Shown: positions 2,131 to 8,820 of the stretch, piece by piece
How the letters are laid out: each line of letters starts with the position of its first letter
How positions within the stretch are numbered: the first letter of the stretch is position 1
From: Ignavibacteria bacterium
GTDB taxonomy: Bacteria; Bacteroidota; Ignavibacteria; Kapaibacteriales; UBA4661
Direction of reading: 5' to 3'
DNA: 64,000 nucleotides
Assembly (NCBI GenBank): GCA_014654705.1
Contig: JACVZY010000059.1
Coordinates: forward strand, 124,001 to 188,000
The notes under the pieces: generated by a model
Told to the model about the DNA's origin: nothing
Seen by the model: only the letters and a program-made list of their open reading frames with translations
Databases searched by the model: none
Program-made: the position numbers and the translations under genes

Positions 2131-3117
2131 ATGAACACTATTTCACTTGGCATCATCGGCGGCGCTGGCTACACGGGCGGCGAATTACTTCGTATTTTGC
2201 TGCACCACCCCAACGCTCACATTTCTTTCATTCACAGCACCAGCAATGCCGGAAAGCCTGTGGCAAGCGTTCACACGGACGTGCTGGGCGATACGGATTT
2301 GCACTTCACAAACGACATTAGGACGGATGTGGATATACTTTTCCTTTGTCTGGGGCATGGCGAAGCAAAAAAGTTTCTAGCTGCAAACCCGATTCCGCCA
2401 AGCGTTCGCATCATTGACCTCAGCCAAGATTTCCGCTATGCCGATAGTGCAGAGTGGCTCTATGGTTTGCCGGAATTGCACAGAGACCGCATCGTTGCTG
2501 CTCGTGCGGGCAGCGTGAATATCGCCAATCCGGGCTGCTTTGCGACGTGTATTCAGCTTGGTTTGTTGCCGCTTGCGAAGGCGGGTTTGCTGTCGGAAGA
2601 AGTCCATTGCACGGGCGTTACGGGTTCAACAGGTGCGGGGCAAGCGCTTTCGCAAACATCCCATTTTTCGTGGCGGTCGGGTAATATCTCGGTCTATAAA
2701 GCCTTTGAACATCAGCATCTGCGCGAGATTCAGGCAAGTTTGCGTGCGCTTCAGCCGTCGTTTGACGAAACGGCGAACATCTATTTCGTGCCGATGCGCG
2801 GCAGTTTTACGCGAGGTATTCTGGCTTCTACCTACTTGAAATGTGCTGAAAGTCTTGATTCTGTGAGGTCTCTTTATCGTGAGTATTACGCCCAGCATCC
2901 GTTTGTGCATCTCACCGAATCCAGTCCTGATGTGAAACAGGTCGTGAATACAAATAAGTGTGTGATTTCGCTGGAGCAGCATGGCGCAATGCTGCACATT
3001 GTTTCGGTGATTGATAATTTGCTCAAAGGCGCATCGGGACAGGCTGTGCAGAATATGAATGTGCTATTTGATCTGCCGGAGACGGCTGGTTTAGGATTGA
3101 AAGGAATTGCTTTGTAG
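2131..3117 (+). CDS. argC: N-acetyl-gamma-glutamyl-phosphate reductase
   Basis: ArgC reduces N-acetylglutamyl phosphate to the semialdehyde with NADPH, the third step of arginine synthesis, in the cytoplasm. The 328 residues start with the nucleotide-binding GIIGGAGYTGGELLR, carry the catalytic Cys136 in NPGCFATC, and show GVTGSTGAG plus a C-terminal segment (DNLLKGASGQAVQNMN) diagnostic of the family. Length is normal. No other arginine gene lies in the window, so the pathway is scattered. It probably shares a transcript with the two genes upstream (18-bp gap). In some Bacteroidota the pathway uses succinylated rather than acetylated intermediates; the sequence here does not decide this. Confidence 0.96.
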   Translation: MNTISLGIIGGAGYTGGELLRILLHHPNAHISFIHSTSNAGKPVASVHTDVLGDTDLHFTNDIRTDVDILFLCLGHGEAKKFLAANPIPPSVRIIDLSQDFRYADSAEWLYGLPELHRDRIVAARAGSVNIANPGCFATCIQLGLLPLAKAGLLSEEVHCTGVTGSTGAGQALSQTSHFSWRSGNISVYKAFEHQHLREIQASLRALQPSFDETANIYFVPMRGSFTRGILASTYLKCAESLDSVRSLYREYYAQHPFVHLTESSPDVKQVVNTNKCVISLEQHGAMLHIVSVIDNLLKGASGQAVQNMNVLFDLPETAGLGLKGIAL

Positions 3118-3127: not shown

Positions 3128-3337
3128 TGCGTGAGGTGTTTTTTCTTGCTTTTGAGGGGATTTTTTTGCTTGTTTCGGAAAGTAGAAAATGTAGAATAAA
3201 TTTCAGGGTCACTCCAGATACATACACGATAGACATTCGGTATAAACGTTGTAGAACCTTGTGTGAATGGGGAGTACAGCGTTTTCTTGTGAAATTCCTC
3301 ACTTTTTCTCCCATCTCAAATTTCATTGTTTAGGATT

Positions 3338-5356
3338 ATGGATACTACAACCGCCGTATATGGTAGTGGCAACGCCCAAAATTCAATTTCGTCGGTCATG
3401 CAGGAGCATCGTATTTTCCCGCCACCGCCGGACTTTTCTGCCAAAGCGAATATCAAGTCTGCTGCAGAGTTGGATGCGCTCTGCGATAAAGCCGAGCAAG
3501 ACCCGGTCGCTTTCTGGGAGCAGCAAGCAAATGCTCTAACGTGGTTCAAGAAGTGGGACACGGCGCTTGAGTGGAAGTATCCCTTTGCGAAGTGGTTTAC
3601 GGGTGGGAAAATCAATGCATCCTACAACTGCCTCGATAGACACTTAAACTCGTGGCGGCGCAATAAAGCTGCGCTCATCTGGGAGGGCGAGCCAGGTGAG
3701 GTACGGACGCTGACGTATCAAACGTTGCATGGTGAGGTGAGTCGTTTTGCCAATGTGTTGAAATCCTTCGGTATCAAAAAGGGCGATGTTGTGGCAATTT
3801 ATATGGGTATGGTGCCGGAAGCAGTCGTAGCAATGCTTGCCTGCGCACGTATCGGTGCAACGCATAACGTGGTCTTTGGCGGCTTTTCGGCAGAAGCGTT
3901 GCGTGATCGTGTGAACGACTCAAAAGCAGTTTGTGTCATCACGCAGGATGGCGCTTATCGCAAGGGCATTTTTACACCGCTTAAGCCCGCTGTAGATGCA
4001 GCTTTGACGCAAACGCCGACCGTCGAGAATGTTGTCGTTTTCCGCCGCGCACCGAACGAGGAAACCCAAATGGTCATCGGACGTGACCACTGGTGGCACG
4101 AGCGGGTGCAAGCTGTTAGTAATGTCTGTGCGCCGGAGGAATTGGATAGTGAACATCCATTGTTCATTTTATATACAAGTGGTTCTACCGGCAAACCCAA
4201 AGGAATCTTGCACACCACGGGCGGTTATCTCACGCAGGCTGCATACACCACCAACATCGTGTTTGATATGCGCGACGACGACTTGTACTTCTGCACGGCA
4301 GATATTGGCTGGGTAACGGGTCATTCCTACGTTACCTACGGACCGTTGATGAATGGCGCAACGCTGCTTATGTACGAAGGTGTACCCACCTACCCGGCAC
4401 CGGATAGGCTTTGGGATATTATTGAGCGTCATCGCGTTACCATTTTCTACACTGCCCCGACGGCGATTCGTGCTTTTATGAAAGCGGGAGAAAGCTATGT
4501 CCTGAAGCATGATTTATCTTCGCTGCGGCTTCTGGGAACGGTAGGCGAGCCGATTAACCCAGAGGCGTGGATGTGGTACCACAGCTACGTTGGCGGAAAG
4601 CGTTGCCCTATAGTGGATACGTGGTGGCAGACCGAAACCGGAGCGATGATGATTTCCCCGGTTCCGGGCGCAACACCAACCAAACCCGGCACAGCTACCA
4701 AGCCGCTTCCGGGTATTTTGGCAGATGTGGTGAACAAGGACGGTTCGCCTTGCGGTGCAAACGAAGGTGGATACTTGGTGGTGAAGCATCCGTGGCCCTC
4801 CATGCTGCGCACGGTCTTCGGTGACGACGAGCGCTACAAAAAAACGTATTGGGATGAGTTTCCCGAAACTGCCGAACGTCGTGGTTACTACTTCACAGGC
4901 GACGGTGCGCGTAAGGACGAAGACGGCTACATCTGGATAATGGGACGCGTGGACGATGTGGTGAACGTGAGCGGACACCGCTTAGGCACAGCGGAAGTAG
5001 AGAGTGCGCTTGTGTCGCATCCTGCTGTGGCAGAGGCGGCTGTTGTTGCCCGTCCTGATGACATTAAAGGCTCGGCACTTGTGGCATTTGTTACCCTCAA
5101 AACAGCCACCGATGCAAGCAAAGGCATACTTGCTGAGCTAAAAGAGGAGCTTCGCAATCACGTCGCAAAAGAAATTGGACACATCGCCAAACCCGATGAA
5201 ATTAGGTTTTCGGATTCACTCCCGAAAACCCGCAGCGGAAAAATCATGCGTCGCCTTCTGCGCGAGGTGGCGTCCGGCAATGCCGTTACGGGCGATACGA
5301 CTACACTAGAGGATTTTTCCGTGCTGGAAAAGCTACGCACTGGCGACGAGGAATAA
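3338..5356 (+). CDS. acs: Acetyl-CoA synthetase (AMP-forming)
   Basis: Activates acetate with ATP and CoA to acetyl-CoA via acetyl-AMP, in the cytoplasm. The ATG at 3338 (MDTTTAVYG) is chosen over an in-frame TTG four codons upstream; it gives 672 residues, the normal length. Signature motifs are the P-loop [11 protein letters not shown] (about 278-288), WWQTETG, the hinge/adenylation region [15 protein letters not shown], and the C-terminal [11 protein letters not shown] whose Lys635 is the lysine acetylated in regulated homologues. The gene stands alone, with a roughly 220-bp region upstream and a strong terminator downstream. A MarR regulator follows, but no operator-like dyad is seen before acs. 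Confidence 0.97.
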
Positions 5357-5380: not shown

Positions 5381-5413
5381 AAACCCCGCACGATTCCTTG
5401 TCTTGCGGGGTTT
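5381..5413 (+). terminator. Rho-independent terminator after acs
   Basis: Perfect 10-bp stem AAACCCCGCA (5381-5390) / TGCGGGGTTT (5404-5413) with a 13-nt loop, G+C-rich and ending in T residues. Confidence 0.85.
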
Positions 5414-5450: not shown

Positions 5451-5481
5451 TTTGCAAAGAAGTTTCGCTTGTGTTATTTTG
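5451..5481 (+). promoter_or_regulatory. Candidate marR promoter
   Basis: TTTG at 5451-5454, then 19 nt, then TTATTTTG at 5474-5481. This resembles the Bacteroidota consensus TTTG-N19-TAnnTTTG with one mismatch in the -7 box. Transcription would start near 5488, inside the operator-like dyad that follows, which fits autorepression. Confidence 0.5.
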
Positions 5482-5504
5482 CAATAGTTAGCAAAGCAAA
5501 TATT
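5482..5504 (+). promoter_or_regulatory. Candidate MarR operator 1 (marR promoter)
   Basis: Half-sites ATAGTTAGC (5484-5492) and GCAAATATT (5496-5504) form an imperfect inverted repeat with a 3-nt spacer. The left half is identical to the corresponding part of the better dyad at 5971-5996. It sits just downstream of the -7 box and upstream of the ATG at 5521, a usual place for an autorepressor site. Confidence 0.5.
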
Positions 5505-5520
5505 AAATATGCAATAAAAA

Positions 5521-5955
5521 ATGGAAATTGTACAAGCATACCCCTATTTGATGGAACGTGCTATGCGCCGTATGCGTCAGGTAACTCACCAAGCGTTTGC
5601 CGAAGCGGGTCTGGATATTACGGCAGAGCAGTGGGTTGTGCTGTACATCATACACGATGGAAATGGATTGTCCCAAGTAGAAATTACCGAACTTGCCTTT
5701 AAGGATGCGCCGACAGTAACTCGTATAATTGATAATCTCGTCAAAAAAGGCTGGGTGTTTCGGCAAATGGGCACAGAAGACCGCCGTAAATTTGAATTGT
5801 ACATGACGAAGGAAGGTAGTGAGGTGGTCGAAAAACTACTCCCAATTGTAATGGCTCTGCGCCAGCAAGGAATAAATGATCTCAGTGCATCGGACTTGCG
5901 AATATTGAAGAAAGTGCTCAATCGAATCTATACAAATTTTGATACCGGTGAATAA
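5521..5955 (+). CDS. MarR-family transcriptional regulator
   Basis: 144 residues, normal for the family. It shows the winged helix-turn-helix: a recognition region around 45-75 (LSQVEITELAFKDAPTVTR, then NLVKKGWVFR) and the wing DRRKFELYMTKEG with the family's DxR feature. MarR proteins are dimeric repressors that bind short palindromes and release them on ligand or thiol binding. Two related palindromes flank this gene, one over its own promoter and one upstream of the exported protein at 6029, so autoregulation and control of that gene are inferred. The ligand is unknown. The protein contains no cysteine, which argues against simple cysteine-based oxidant sensing. Confidence 0.93.
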   Translation: MEIVQAYPYLMERAMRRMRQVTHQAFAEAGLDITAEQWVVLYIIHDGNGLSQVEITELAFKDAPTVTRIIDNLVKKGWVFRQMGTEDRRKFELYMTKEGSEVVEKLLPIVMALRQQGINDLSASDLRILKKVLNRIYTNFDTGE

Positions 5956-5970
5956 ATATTTTTTTTTGCC

Positions 5971-5996
5971 CAAATAGTTAGCTTGCTAATTATTTG
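5971..5996 (+). promoter_or_regulatory. Candidate MarR operator 2 (long near-perfect dyad)
   Basis: CAAATAGTTAGC (5971-5982), a 2-nt spacer TT, then GCTAATTATTTG (5985-5996): 11 of 12 positions are symmetrical. It repeats the ATAGTTAGC half-site seen upstream of marR and lies about 30 bp before the next start codon. It is followed by a run of T, so a weak A/T-rich terminator for marR is the alternative reading. Confidence 0.55.
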
Positions 5997-6028
5997 TTTT
6001 TTAATAATTTTTTAACAAAGGAAATAAC

Positions 6029-6508
6029 ATGAAAACAATCCTTGCAACACTCGCTCTCGCTCTTACCGGCGGAGTAATGCAGGTTCTGGCGCAGTCAGCT
6101 CCACAACACAAAAGTGCTGCTGACAGCAATACTGCAAGTAAAAAGTCCGCCCAAGATGCGGTGCTTGCTTTTGTAAAGGCAGGCGATGAGCGTAATATCG
6201 CTGTGCTGGAAAAGCTCATCCACGAAAATTTTCGTGCTTTAGCGCATCCGCCCGGCACTACTATTGCCAAGCCTGTCATCGAAAGCCGTGCGAATTATCT
6301 CGCACTTGTCCAAGAGGGGAAAATCGGCGGCAAGCCGCGCAAAGTCTCTCTCCAAAGTGCAGATGTTTGGAATAATACTGCTGTTGTCCGCGTAGAAATG
6401 GAAAGTGCTGAATTACACTTTTCTTCAACGCTTTCGCTGTTCTACGCACCGGAAACAGGCTGGCAACTTGTCCATGACCTTGTGGAACTGCAAGCACGAG
6501 GGAACTAA
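6029..6508 (+). CDS. Exported NTF2/SnoaL-like (DUF4440 or putative lumazine-binding type) protein
   Basis: 159 residues with a clear signal peptide (MKTILATLALALTGGVMQ to VLAQ, about 1-22). The rest looks like a small cone-shaped NTF2-like domain: helix AVLAFVKAGDERNIAVLEKL, then strands ending SLFYAPETGWQLVHDLVEL. This resembles DUF4440 and putative lumazine-binding families, whose members are often ligand pockets or have no known activity. An AAAGGA-like ribosome site precedes the ATG. The gene follows marR by 73 bp and has the strongest operator-like palindrome of the window in front of it, so it is a probable target of that regulator. No catalytic residues can be assigned. Confidence 0.7.
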   Translation: MKTILATLALALTGGVMQVLAQSAPQHKSAADSNTASKKSAQDAVLAFVKAGDERNIAVLEKLIHENFRALAHPPGTTIAKPVIESRANYLALVQEGKIGGKPRKVSLQSADVWNNTAVVRVEMESAELHFSSTLSLFYAPETGWQLVHDLVELQARGN

Positions 6509-6678: not shown

Positions 6679-6729
6679 CATGGCTTGTTGTAGTGGCGTT
6701 ACGATTGCGCGACGTTACAACAAGCCATG
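6679..6729. repeat. 14-bp perfect inverted repeat with 23-nt loop
   Basis: CATGGCTTGTTGTA (6679-6692) and TACAACAAGCCATG (6716-6729) are exact reverse complements. The element lies in the 268-bp space between the genes ending at 6508 and starting at 6777, which holds no other recognisable gene. It could be a REP-like element, an RNA hairpin in the leader of the next gene, or a regulator site. It has no T-run, so it is not a typical terminator. Confidence 0.6.
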
Positions 6730-6776: not shown

Positions 6777-7481
6777 ATGAAAACAGTGATTCGTTATGGT
6801 ATTGTTCTGTGCCTTGCTGCACTTATCGGCATAACATCCCAGCTATCCGCCCAAAAACTGGCAAATTTTGAGGGCGTTGTGGTATTTAAGAAAAAGGGCG
6901 AAACGCACGGTGTCGTGGACTCAGTAACAATGCGGCTTTACATCAAGGGTGATAAGTTTATGGCAGAAGATGTAAAAGACGCCAATCAGCCGCGTATTAT
7001 CGTCGATACGAAGAAAAAATTGATTTTTATGATAACAGATCGCAGCCGCGAGTATATGCAAATGCCTACACCGCCTGCACCGCCGGGCGTTGCCGCGAAA
7101 GCACCTGCCAAGACTACCGACAAACAGATAATAGCCGGACATCCCTGTGAACGCTGGCTGGAAAAAAGTTCCGACCTCGACACAGAGTTGTGGGCTTCCA
7201 GTGATATCGGTAAACTCTCGCTTCCAAGCGGTGCTATGGGGGTGAATCTTATCAACTCAAATAATATGGCTGTCTTCTTGAAAAATAGTAATCTCTTTCC
7301 GTTTCTGTTTATTGAGAAGAACAAAGCTGGGCGCGAAATGACGCGCCTTGAGGTCATATCGGTCGAAAAGAAAGCCCTCGCCGAAGCAGTCTTTGAACCG
7401 CCGCAAGGGTATAATAAAATGACTATGCCCACGGGCACACTCTCCGATACTCCGGCACAAAGCGGAAAAAAGAAGAAATAA
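6777..7481 (+). CDS. Exported DUF4412-domain protein
   Basis: The ATG at 6777 is chosen because it begins a signal peptide (MKTVIRYGIVLCLAALIG to LSAQ); the frame could extend upstream to 6693, but that part has no protein-like character and overlaps an inverted repeat. The mature part follows the DUF4412 pattern: FEGVVVFKK, a strand-rich first half (MRLYIKGDKFMAE, KKLIFMITDRSREYM), a Pro/Ala linker, then IIAGHPCERW, which in this family precedes a second beta-rich half. DUF4412 proteins are periplasmic and fold much like LolA/LolB-related domains; their role is unknown. The tail is lysine-rich (SGKKKK). A terminator follows. Confidence 0.75.
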   Translation: MKTVIRYGIVLCLAALIGITSQLSAQKLANFEGVVVFKKKGETHGVVDSVTMRLYIKGDKFMAEDVKDANQPRIIVDTKKKLIFMITDRSREYMQMPTPPAPPGVAAKAPAKTTDKQIIAGHPCERWLEKSSDLDTELWASSDIGKLSLPSGAMGVNLINSNNMAVFLKNSNLFPFLFIEKNKAGREMTRLEVISVEKKALAEAVFEPPQGYNKMTMPTGTLSDTPAQSGKKKK

Positions 7482-7551: not shown

Positions 7552-7707
7552 CTTGAAGGTACGCATTATCGATTTACTTGATTTTCTGTCTAAGTGCATA
7601 CATTTATTCCGTTGGATGATTCCTAGCCCTGAAGTATTTTATGGCGATTCTTCCCGCTCATACCCAAGAACAGTTTGCTATTTTTTAATCTCAAAGGAGA
7701 ACGATAT

Positions 7708-8820
7708 ATGGCTCAACCAATCAAACGAATTGCCGTGAGTACCGGCGGCGGCGATGCTCCCGGCTTAAACGCAGTCATTCGCGCAATCGTTCACGCCGCC
7801 ACACGGCGCGGGTGGGAAGTTTTCGGCATACGCGACGGCTATAATGGCATTTTTCTGCCGGAGCGCTACCCCAATGGTGACGGCGTGATTCCACTCACGC
7901 GAGCACGTGTGCGAGGTATAACACACCTCGGCGGTACAATTATCGGCACGACTAATCGCGGTAATCCTTTCCACTATCCAATGCCGCAGCTTGACGGTAC
8001 AGTGAAAGAAGTTGACCGTTCGGGCGAGATTATTGCAGGCTTTGAAAAATATGGCTTCGATGCCCTAATTGCCATTGGTGGTGACGGTTCACTCACCATA
8101 GCAAATGACCTCGCCAAACGAGGCAATATCCGCGTAGTAGGTGTGCCCAAGACCATCGACAACGATTTAGAGGGCACGGTCGCTACCTTCGGGTTTGATA
8201 GTGCGGTCAGTTTTGCTACCGAAGCCATTGACCGCTTGCACTCCACTGCCGAGTCCCATCACCGCGTCATGGTGGTGGAAGTGATGGGGCGCACTGCGGG
8301 GTGGATTGCGCTGAATGCAGGTGTAGCAGGAACGGCAGATGTGGTGCTGATTCCTGAAATTCCCTACGATATGAGGCTCGTGGCGGATAAAATCAACGCC
8401 CGCGAAGCTGCAGGGCGTAATTTTTCGATTGTCGTTGTTGCTGAAGGTGCTGTTCCTAAGGGCGGTACAACCTCAGTCATCGAAAAAGAAATTGGTAAAG
8501 CAGAGCGTTTCGGTGGTTTGGGTGAAAAAATTGCTGCTCAAATCCAATCGCTTACCCAAAAAGAGACGCGCTGCGTTGTGCTTGGACACCTCTTGCGGGG
8601 TGGTTCTCCCACAGCATTCGACCGCTTGCTTTCGCTTCGTTTCGGTGCAGCAGCAGTTCGGGCGCTAGAGGACGGGCAGTCCGGTGTAGTGGTAGTTCTT
8701 AATCCGCCAGAAGTAAACTATATCCCGATTGATCAGGTAGCAAACCGCGTTCGCCATGTGCCCGTTGATTGCGATACGATTTTGACGGCGCGAGATTTGG
8801 GCGTTAGTTTTGGCGATTAA
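7708..8820 (+). CDS. pfkA: 6-phosphofructokinase (group III type)
   Basis: Phosphorylates fructose 6-phosphate at C1, the committed step of glycolysis. The ATG at 7708 has AAAGGAGA 7 bp upstream; the frame extends 11 codons further but without a site. 370 residues. Motifs: GGGDAPGLNAVIRAIV at the N-terminus, IGGDGS (124-128 region) and PKTIDND (147-153) with the catalytic Asp151, then MGRTAGWIA and PEIPYD. Gly127 in GGDGS is the ATP-type residue, while Lys148 occupies the position that is Lys in PPi enzymes and Gly in E. coli PfkA. This Gly/Lys pair is typical of the mixed group III enzymes, so ATP is the likely donor but PPi use is not excluded. Confidence 0.94.
   Translation: MAQPIKRIAVSTGGGDAPGLNAVIRAIVHAATRRGWEVFGIRDGYNGIFLPERYPNGDGVIPLTRARVRGITHLGGTIIGTTNRGNPFHYPMPQLDGTVKEVDRSGEIIAGFEKYGFDALIAIGGDGSLTIANDLAKRGNIRVVGVPKTIDNDLEGTVATFGFDSAVSFATEAIDRLHSTAESHHRVMVVEVMGRTAGWIALNAGVAGTADVVLIPEIPYDMRLVADKINAREAAGRNFSIVVVAEGAVPKGGTTSVIEKEIGKAERFGGLGEKIAAQIQSLTQKETRCVVLGHLLRGGSPTAFDRLLSLRFGAAAVRALEDGQSGVVVVLNPPEVNYIPIDQVANRVRHVPVDCDTILTARDLGVSFGD

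Follow-up and report, generated by a model that had tools for sequence, protein, structure and literature searches.

Does a MarR-family regulator that is encoded directly ahead of a gene for an exported protein control that gene together with its own? MarR proteins that repress their own gene are common, with efflux pumps, oxidoreductases, and catabolic genes as familiar targets, and the locus that raises the question instead has an exported protein of NTF2-like fold as the neighbor. It lies in the window, by which we mean the whole 64-kb stretch analyzed here (contig G000:C59:124001-188000 of a 5.72-Mb assembly), from a genome whose nearest named relatives are metagenome assemblies of Ignavibacteria and Candidatus Kapaibacterium. 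The marR gene (5521-5955, plus strand) encodes a winged-helix regulator of 144 aa with no cysteine, which scores 53.9 bits against the Pfam MarR model (PF01047; cut-off 24.6). Upstream of it are an argC-like gene (2131-3117) and an acetyl-CoA synthetase gene (3326-5356), the latter likely set apart from marR by an intrinsic terminator of its own at 5382-5412 on the plus strand (11 of 12 pairs, a 7-nt loop, then TTTGTTGTCT), within which a terminator scan reports the shorter stem 5396-5410. The NTF2-like gene (6029-6508, plus strand) encodes 159 aa with a signal-like N terminus at residues 1 to about 21, signal sequences being judged by eye for all proteins here and not with a signal-peptide program. 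Its product scores 26.9 bits (gathering cut-off 22.1) against PF12893, Lumazine_bd_2, a family described by Pfam itself as putative lumazine-binding, and its AlphaFold model (mean pLDDT 80.1) has as top Foldseek match 3fka (E 4e-8), an NTF2-like protein whose function is unknown. The window protein shares Pfam family and fold with 3fka and with 3duk, likewise of unknown function, and differs from them in its signal-like N terminus; the structure-match records name no ligand for either. Genes for a DUF4412 protein (6780-7481) and phosphofructokinase (7675-8820) follow. An inverted repeat with perfect 14-bp arms (CATGGCTTGTTGTA and TACAACAAGCCATG), a 23-nt loop, and a T-rich stretch behind it occupies 6679-6729 in the gap 3' of the NTF2-like gene and is perhaps its terminator.

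Between marR and the NTF2-like gene, positions 5971-5996 read CAAATAGTTAGC-TT-GCTAATTATTTG, with 11 of the 12 arm positions paired around a 2-nt spacer, and the half-site ATAGTTAGC recurs exactly at 5484-5492; on both counts an earlier sequence-only reading of this DNA had described the locus correctly. We refer to the dyad as predicted operator O2 (20-mer at 5974-5993, ATAGTTAGCTTGCTAATTAT; minus-strand core TTAGCAAGCTAA) and to the second site, at the marR promoter, as predicted operator O1 (5484-5503, plus strand, ATAGTTAGCAAAGCAAATAT; left half exact, right half degenerate). The same reading had put the latter over the predicted marR start site, and it does sit in the predicted start region, directly downstream of a predicted promoter at 5451-5481 on the plus strand (TTTG at 5451-5454, a 20-nt spacer, TATTTTG at 5475-5481) that resembles a Bacteroidota-type promoter and whose spacing is, by eye, the same in the congeners G002, G004, and G005. 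Taken as a bare palindrome, the dyad is only mildly unusual, not rare: it is the sole palindrome in the window with 12-bp arms, a 2-nt spacer, and at least 11 pairs, and Markov sequences of window composition (20 sequences) lead one to expect 0.5 of these, with that spacer, per 64 kb. Its significance comes from the fact that a model taken from elsewhere, a position weight matrix (PWM) made from the sites of the three congeners only, ranks the two sites first and second in the window, with scores of 26.5 for O2, 15.1 for O1, and 7.7 for the third-ranked position. The highest scores of 100 Markov windows have 10.1 as their median and reach 21.8 at most, which places O2 above all 100 simulated maxima and O1 below the largest; the case for O1 therefore rests on its position and its conservation. 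Compared with an ideal site derived from relatives, ATAGTTAG-N4-CTAACTAT, the dyad matches at 15 of 16 positions, 5484-5503 at 13, and the next position in the window at 12. Across all 5.72 Mb of the genome, no place other than the dyad comes within one mismatch of this ideal; eight places, O1 and O2 among them, have at most three mismatches, and four of the other six are inside predicted genes. O1 pairs at 5 of 10 positions in the window, as against 6 in an unrelated AT-rich stretch beside it, and it matches the letter motif WTAGTTR-N6-YAACTAW at 13 of 14 positions; its right half is the degenerate GCAAATAT in the window and ACAACTAT in four relatives.

A genome-wide search for a regulon did not discriminate: a degenerate pattern with up to 2 mismatches matched 79 places on the two strands of the window genome (G000) and its reversed control 205, and we dropped the genome-wide regulon drawn from this loose pattern. 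Another MarR gene of the same genome (G000:C43:16907-17440; L163 942-1520) has a near-palindrome, ATAGTTATTTTTATCACTAT, just behind it and before the next gene, with a near-identical copy behind a MarR gene in G002 (G002:C603:3271-3764); these sites are possibly a related operator or a point of cross-talk.

Both predicted sites are conserved with the two genes. Among 61 genomes of near relatives (own, genus, family, and order), MarR matches have 73-74% identity in G002, G004, and G005 and 49% in G009, all four of them metagenome assemblies, and the six NTF2-like matches are the window's own, those of the three congeners (59-63%), and distant ones in G016 (25%) and G024 (20%). Each of the six follows a MarR match on its own strand at a distance of no more than 450 nt. 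The three congeners keep marR, the NTF2-like gene, and the two sites, O1 as ATARTTAG-N4-ACAACTAT at 35-37 nt before marR and O2 as ATAGTTAG-N4-CTAAYTAT at 55 nt before the NTF2-like gene. Absence of the dyad from close relatives, which the sequence-only reading had named as a point that would count against it, was thus not found. The upstream neighbor in G005 is ruvA, in place of the acetyl-CoA synthetase gene, and the pairing of marR with the NTF2-like gene is therefore not dependent on a frozen neighborhood. G009 (L092 2958-4080) has two operator-like sites at its MarR gene, the second of them before a gene for an AhpC/TSA peroxiredoxin.

The arrangement recurs at greater distances. A six-row NTF2 profile has 38 matches in 34 genomes of a phylum-wide sample of 395; of the 30 loci examined, 7 have a MarR gene at most 1.5 kb upstream on the same strand, and 23 have none nearby. 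Together with G002, G004, G016, and G024, these seven (the window and G005 among them) bring the MarR-NTF2 pairs to 11 genomes, window included. In all 11, the gap from MarR to the following gene contains a TT..AA-core palindrome with 6 or more of 10 pairs, and in 10 of them one with 7 or more; 132-nt control stretches of the same loci, the window left out, contain such palindromes in 26 and 8 of 370 cases, respectively, the G016 gap being longer than these stretches at about 385 nt. Upstream of MarR, 7 of the 11 show a motif-like site that pairs at 6 or more of 10 positions, with weaker sites in the window (O1, 5 pairs), G143 (5), and G262 (4) and none recognized in G373 when the palindromes of the 11 pairs were listed. 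Half-sites vary among genomes (TTAG, TTGCC, TTGATG); within a single genome, those of the two promoters are, as judged by eye, mostly alike, as expected if regulator and sites change together. In G016 (L059 3836-4101), three near-identical AATAGTTGCCT..GCAA(C/T)AAAT repeats, 123 nt apart, precede the NTF2-like gene, which suggests that several MarR dimers may occupy one promoter. Seven of the 23 loci without MarR nearby were inspected: L185 shows TTGCC-type sites, and the other six (L186-L188, L191, L192, and L195) show no common pattern among their neighbors, five of these six non-TTGCC loci encoding proteins that by eye have no obvious signal sequence.

In some genomes the pair has a third member. 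Six genomes encode an exported DOMON protein, linked to the pair in five and found in the sixth with the NTF2-like gene elsewhere: the NTF2-like gene of G002, G004, and G005 shares its last 4 nt with the beginning of the DOMON gene (PF03351), in G262 and G207 the DOMON gene sits between MarR and NTF2, and the window genome lacks a DOMON match. Of the 395 genomes, four (G005, G207, G262, and G294) match a profile of this DOMON subfamily; each copy adjoins MarR or is one gene away, and an NTF2-like gene is present in all four genomes. G294 has MarR and DOMON together (L216 821-1971) and its NTF2-like gene on another contig, with a TTGCC-type site of 6 of 10 pairs 59 nt upstream (L185 1430-1489); a weak TTGCC-type repeat that overlaps the DOMON start codon pairs poorly and is missing from the palindrome listing. 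These are apparently the same partners, regulated in trans, and the arrangement offers a natural test of such regulation. The DOMON protein itself looks like one of the b-heme type. A methionine (Met94) and a histidine (His177/178) are invariant in all five aligned sequences, and the top three fold matches are heme domains of cellobiose dehydrogenase (E 1e-3 to 5e-3, TM about 0.36), matches of a model of low confidence (pLDDT 62.5); the sequence profile had no match among solved structures up to E 1. In the cytochrome domain of cellobiose dehydrogenase, Met and His ligate the heme, and the two are not conserved in sugar-binding DOMONs (PMC10691727, in excerpt). The DOMON proteins of the cassette differ from that domain in being small and bacterial, with a low-confidence model and no representative in the window genome.

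How, then, is the dyad to be read? It could be the intrinsic terminator of marR, with the NTF2-like gene transcribed from a promoter of its own or by read-through, and the hexamer TTTTTT behind it in the window, its RNA fold of -9.1 kcal/mol (z -3.1), and the C and TTTTT behind the stem in G005 are what a terminator would have. However, the corresponding sequence in G002 and G004, TATTAGCTATTTAAC, has no T-run, the stem is poor in G-C pairs and was not reported by the terminator scan, and it is the half-site letters, beyond mere pairing, that all four genomes keep and that are repeated at the marR promoter. We do not favor a terminator, because of the T-run missing from G002 and G004 and the conserved half-site letters; this objection, which the sequence-only reading had raised against itself and which the T5 of G005 still speaks for, appears unlikely to hold, and we read the dyad as a protein-binding site. 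A binding site may nevertheless serve the regulator alone. Autoregulation and nothing more is a common arrangement among MarR regulators, and 23 of 30 NTF2-like loci do without one nearby, as they might if the gene were a passenger and O2 either served marR or were idle. Against this stand the 11 genomes with the pair, each of which has a palindrome immediately ahead of the gene that follows MarR, and the similar site before the unlinked NTF2-like gene of G294, and we regard a passenger as very improbable.

A third alternative concerns the sign of the regulation. The minus-strand core of O2, TTAGCAAGCTAA, agrees at 12 of 12 positions with the SlyA consensus and its TTA-N6-TAA pattern, and that consensus played no part in the scoring of the dyad. 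SlyA, a MarR-family protein whose consensus also occurs 22 bp upstream of E. coli slyA, is reported as both a negative and a positive regulator (PMC5797941, in excerpt), and the window MarR might likewise be an activator or countersilencer at O2 instead of a repressor. O1, however, would lie over the predicted start region of marR, a repressor's position, and for this reason we infer repression and hold activation at O2 to be rather improbable. The window MarR is not SlyA itself, since it scores 50.2 bits against the NCBIfam SlyA model, whose cut-off is 120; it shares with the SlyA/RovA-type regulators the winged-helix MarR domain and the operator core, and differs from them in its likely target, the adjacent exported protein.

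Repression of both genes by the marR product, released by a ligand, is thus the reading that we consider probable. Its central claim, made already by the sequence-only reading, is that one regulator acts on itself and on the exported protein, and it gains from the two sites kept in three congeners and from the 11 genomes with the pair and a palindrome behind MarR. The marR product would, like others of its family, form a dimer that binds two SlyA-type palindromes, O1 (5484-5503), which would cover the start region of the marR transcript, and O2 (5971-5996), behind marR and ahead of the exported NTF2-like gene. With ligand absent, MarR would hold both promoters low; a small molecule, conceivably aromatic or quinone-like, might release it, whereupon the NTF2-like protein would be made and exported and could bind or convert this molecule, or one related to it, outside the cytoplasm. 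In some relatives the cassette DOMON protein, if it carries a b-type heme, might add a redox step outside the inner membrane. Computed observations are the sites, the fact that they are conserved together with the gene pair, the recurrence of the cassette, and the co-occurrence of its members; an aromatic or quinone-like ligand that the exported proteins bind or convert is speculative. Release by a small ligand and not by cysteine oxidation is suggested by the regulator's composition. Sensors of the OhrR or thiol-oxidation type have a conserved sensing cysteine, and no cysteine occurs in the window MarR or in the 11 related rows inspected, several of which are end-trimmed; thiol-based sensing by the window MarR is accordingly not supported.

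Regulator and operator are in themselves ordinary. The operator of YetL reads TAGTTAG..CTAACTA, and the solved structure 7wze is only a distant match to the window MarR (E 5.5e-8). In B. subtilis, YetL is a MarR repressor of yetM that flavonoids release, and MarR-family proteins bind palindromes of 16-20 bp (PMC10458429, in excerpt); the window has conserved palindromic sites of the predicted MarR operator type, and the YetL target, unlike that in the window, is a monooxygenase. For several Alteromonadales and Pseudoalteromonadales, hmgAB is predicted to be under the control of HmgS, itself a predicted MarR regulator of tyrosine degradation (PMC5343134, in excerpt). Regulators considered here resemble it in gene neighborhood: a pattern scan of one-per-species genomes gave 130 confirmed MarR loci, and in 47 of the best 80 of these an hmgA-like or hpd gene stands no more than 3 kb from MarR, some of the 80 ending at contig ends and gene names being checked on one example each. 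The window MarR belongs to a clade separate from these hmgA-like/hpd-linked rows. In excerpts of the open-licence PubMed Central literature, we found no description of a MarR regulon made up of exported proteins of the NTF2-like and DOMON types.

These neighborhoods bear on what the ligand may be. Within the best 80 of the 130 loci, a site that matches WTAGTTR-N6-YAACTAW at 12 or more of 14 positions lies before or after MarR in 33 of the 47 hmgA-like/hpd loci and in 2 of 29 loci with other neighbors, compared with 21 of 1955 control stretches, each of which is a single stretch whereas 'before or after' allows two. The occurrence of the same operator type at MarR loci beside tyrosine-pathway genes hints at an aromatic ligand. 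A tyrosine-type ligand is only a lead, because the window MarR falls in a separate group and the hpd of its genome (64% identity) is located elsewhere and has no operator in the roughly 400 nt upstream. The short hmgA-like protein has a single match in that genome, at 28% identity, and the idea that the regulator acts directly on hpd or hmgA-like genes there was dropped when no upstream site was found. The sequence-only reading had also made the exported protein the main target of the switch, and as a general statement this cannot be kept: five of the 11 pairs have DOMON in their cassette as well, the MarR of G009 faces a peroxiredoxin, and 47 of the best 80 of 130 loci have the tyrosine-pathway neighbors just described.

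In the MarR tree, the four rows of the genus form one clade (99/99), joined by G009 and three paralogues at 97/95, and three groups are separate: this window clade, the distant MarR-NTF2 pairs with other relatives of the order, and 72 rows rich in hmgA-like/hpd loci. Their order depends on where the root is placed, and the deep forks are uncertain because the columns are few. The 11 pairs fall into two MarR clades, with at least three changes of label, and L190 and L194 are long branches of unsure placement. A broader proposal, which we regard as tentative and rather doubtful, is that of a regulon scattered over the phylum, in which a cysteine-free MarR would control together an exported b-heme DOMON protein and an exported NTF2-like pocket protein that jointly capture and oxidize or reduce an aromatic or quinone-type compound outside the inner membrane; related regulators that share the operator type would be wired elsewhere to the breakdown of tyrosine and homogentisate, and the window species would have kept the switch and the pocket protein and lost DOMON. 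Through the cassette, both PF12893 proteins and small bacterial DOMON proteins become more accessible to study, since the ligand that releases the regulator should tell what the exported proteins act on, and the operator type in common with MarR genes of the tyrosine pathway suggests the first compounds to try.

The best 80 of the 130 MarR loci (L079-L158; for example, L083, L086, L089, and L147) are nearly all from Bacteroidota. In these loci, ATARTTAG..YAACTAW sites precede MarR-hmgA-like operons and TTGC..GCAAC-type sites precede hpd, and the MarR of the hmgA-like/hpd loci looks, from its predicted sites and neighbors, like a regulator of tyrosine catabolism. Among the examples of neighboring genes, hpd and fahA score above the cut-offs of their models. 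The hmgA-like label reflects PF20510 (46.2 bits; cut-off 20.2), the score against the classical HmgA model being 57.2 bits where 510.75 is required. At L082, L083, and L086, a 386-aa hmgA-like protein that exceeds the Pfam HgmA_N cut-off is encoded beside hpd and is perhaps a divergent short form.
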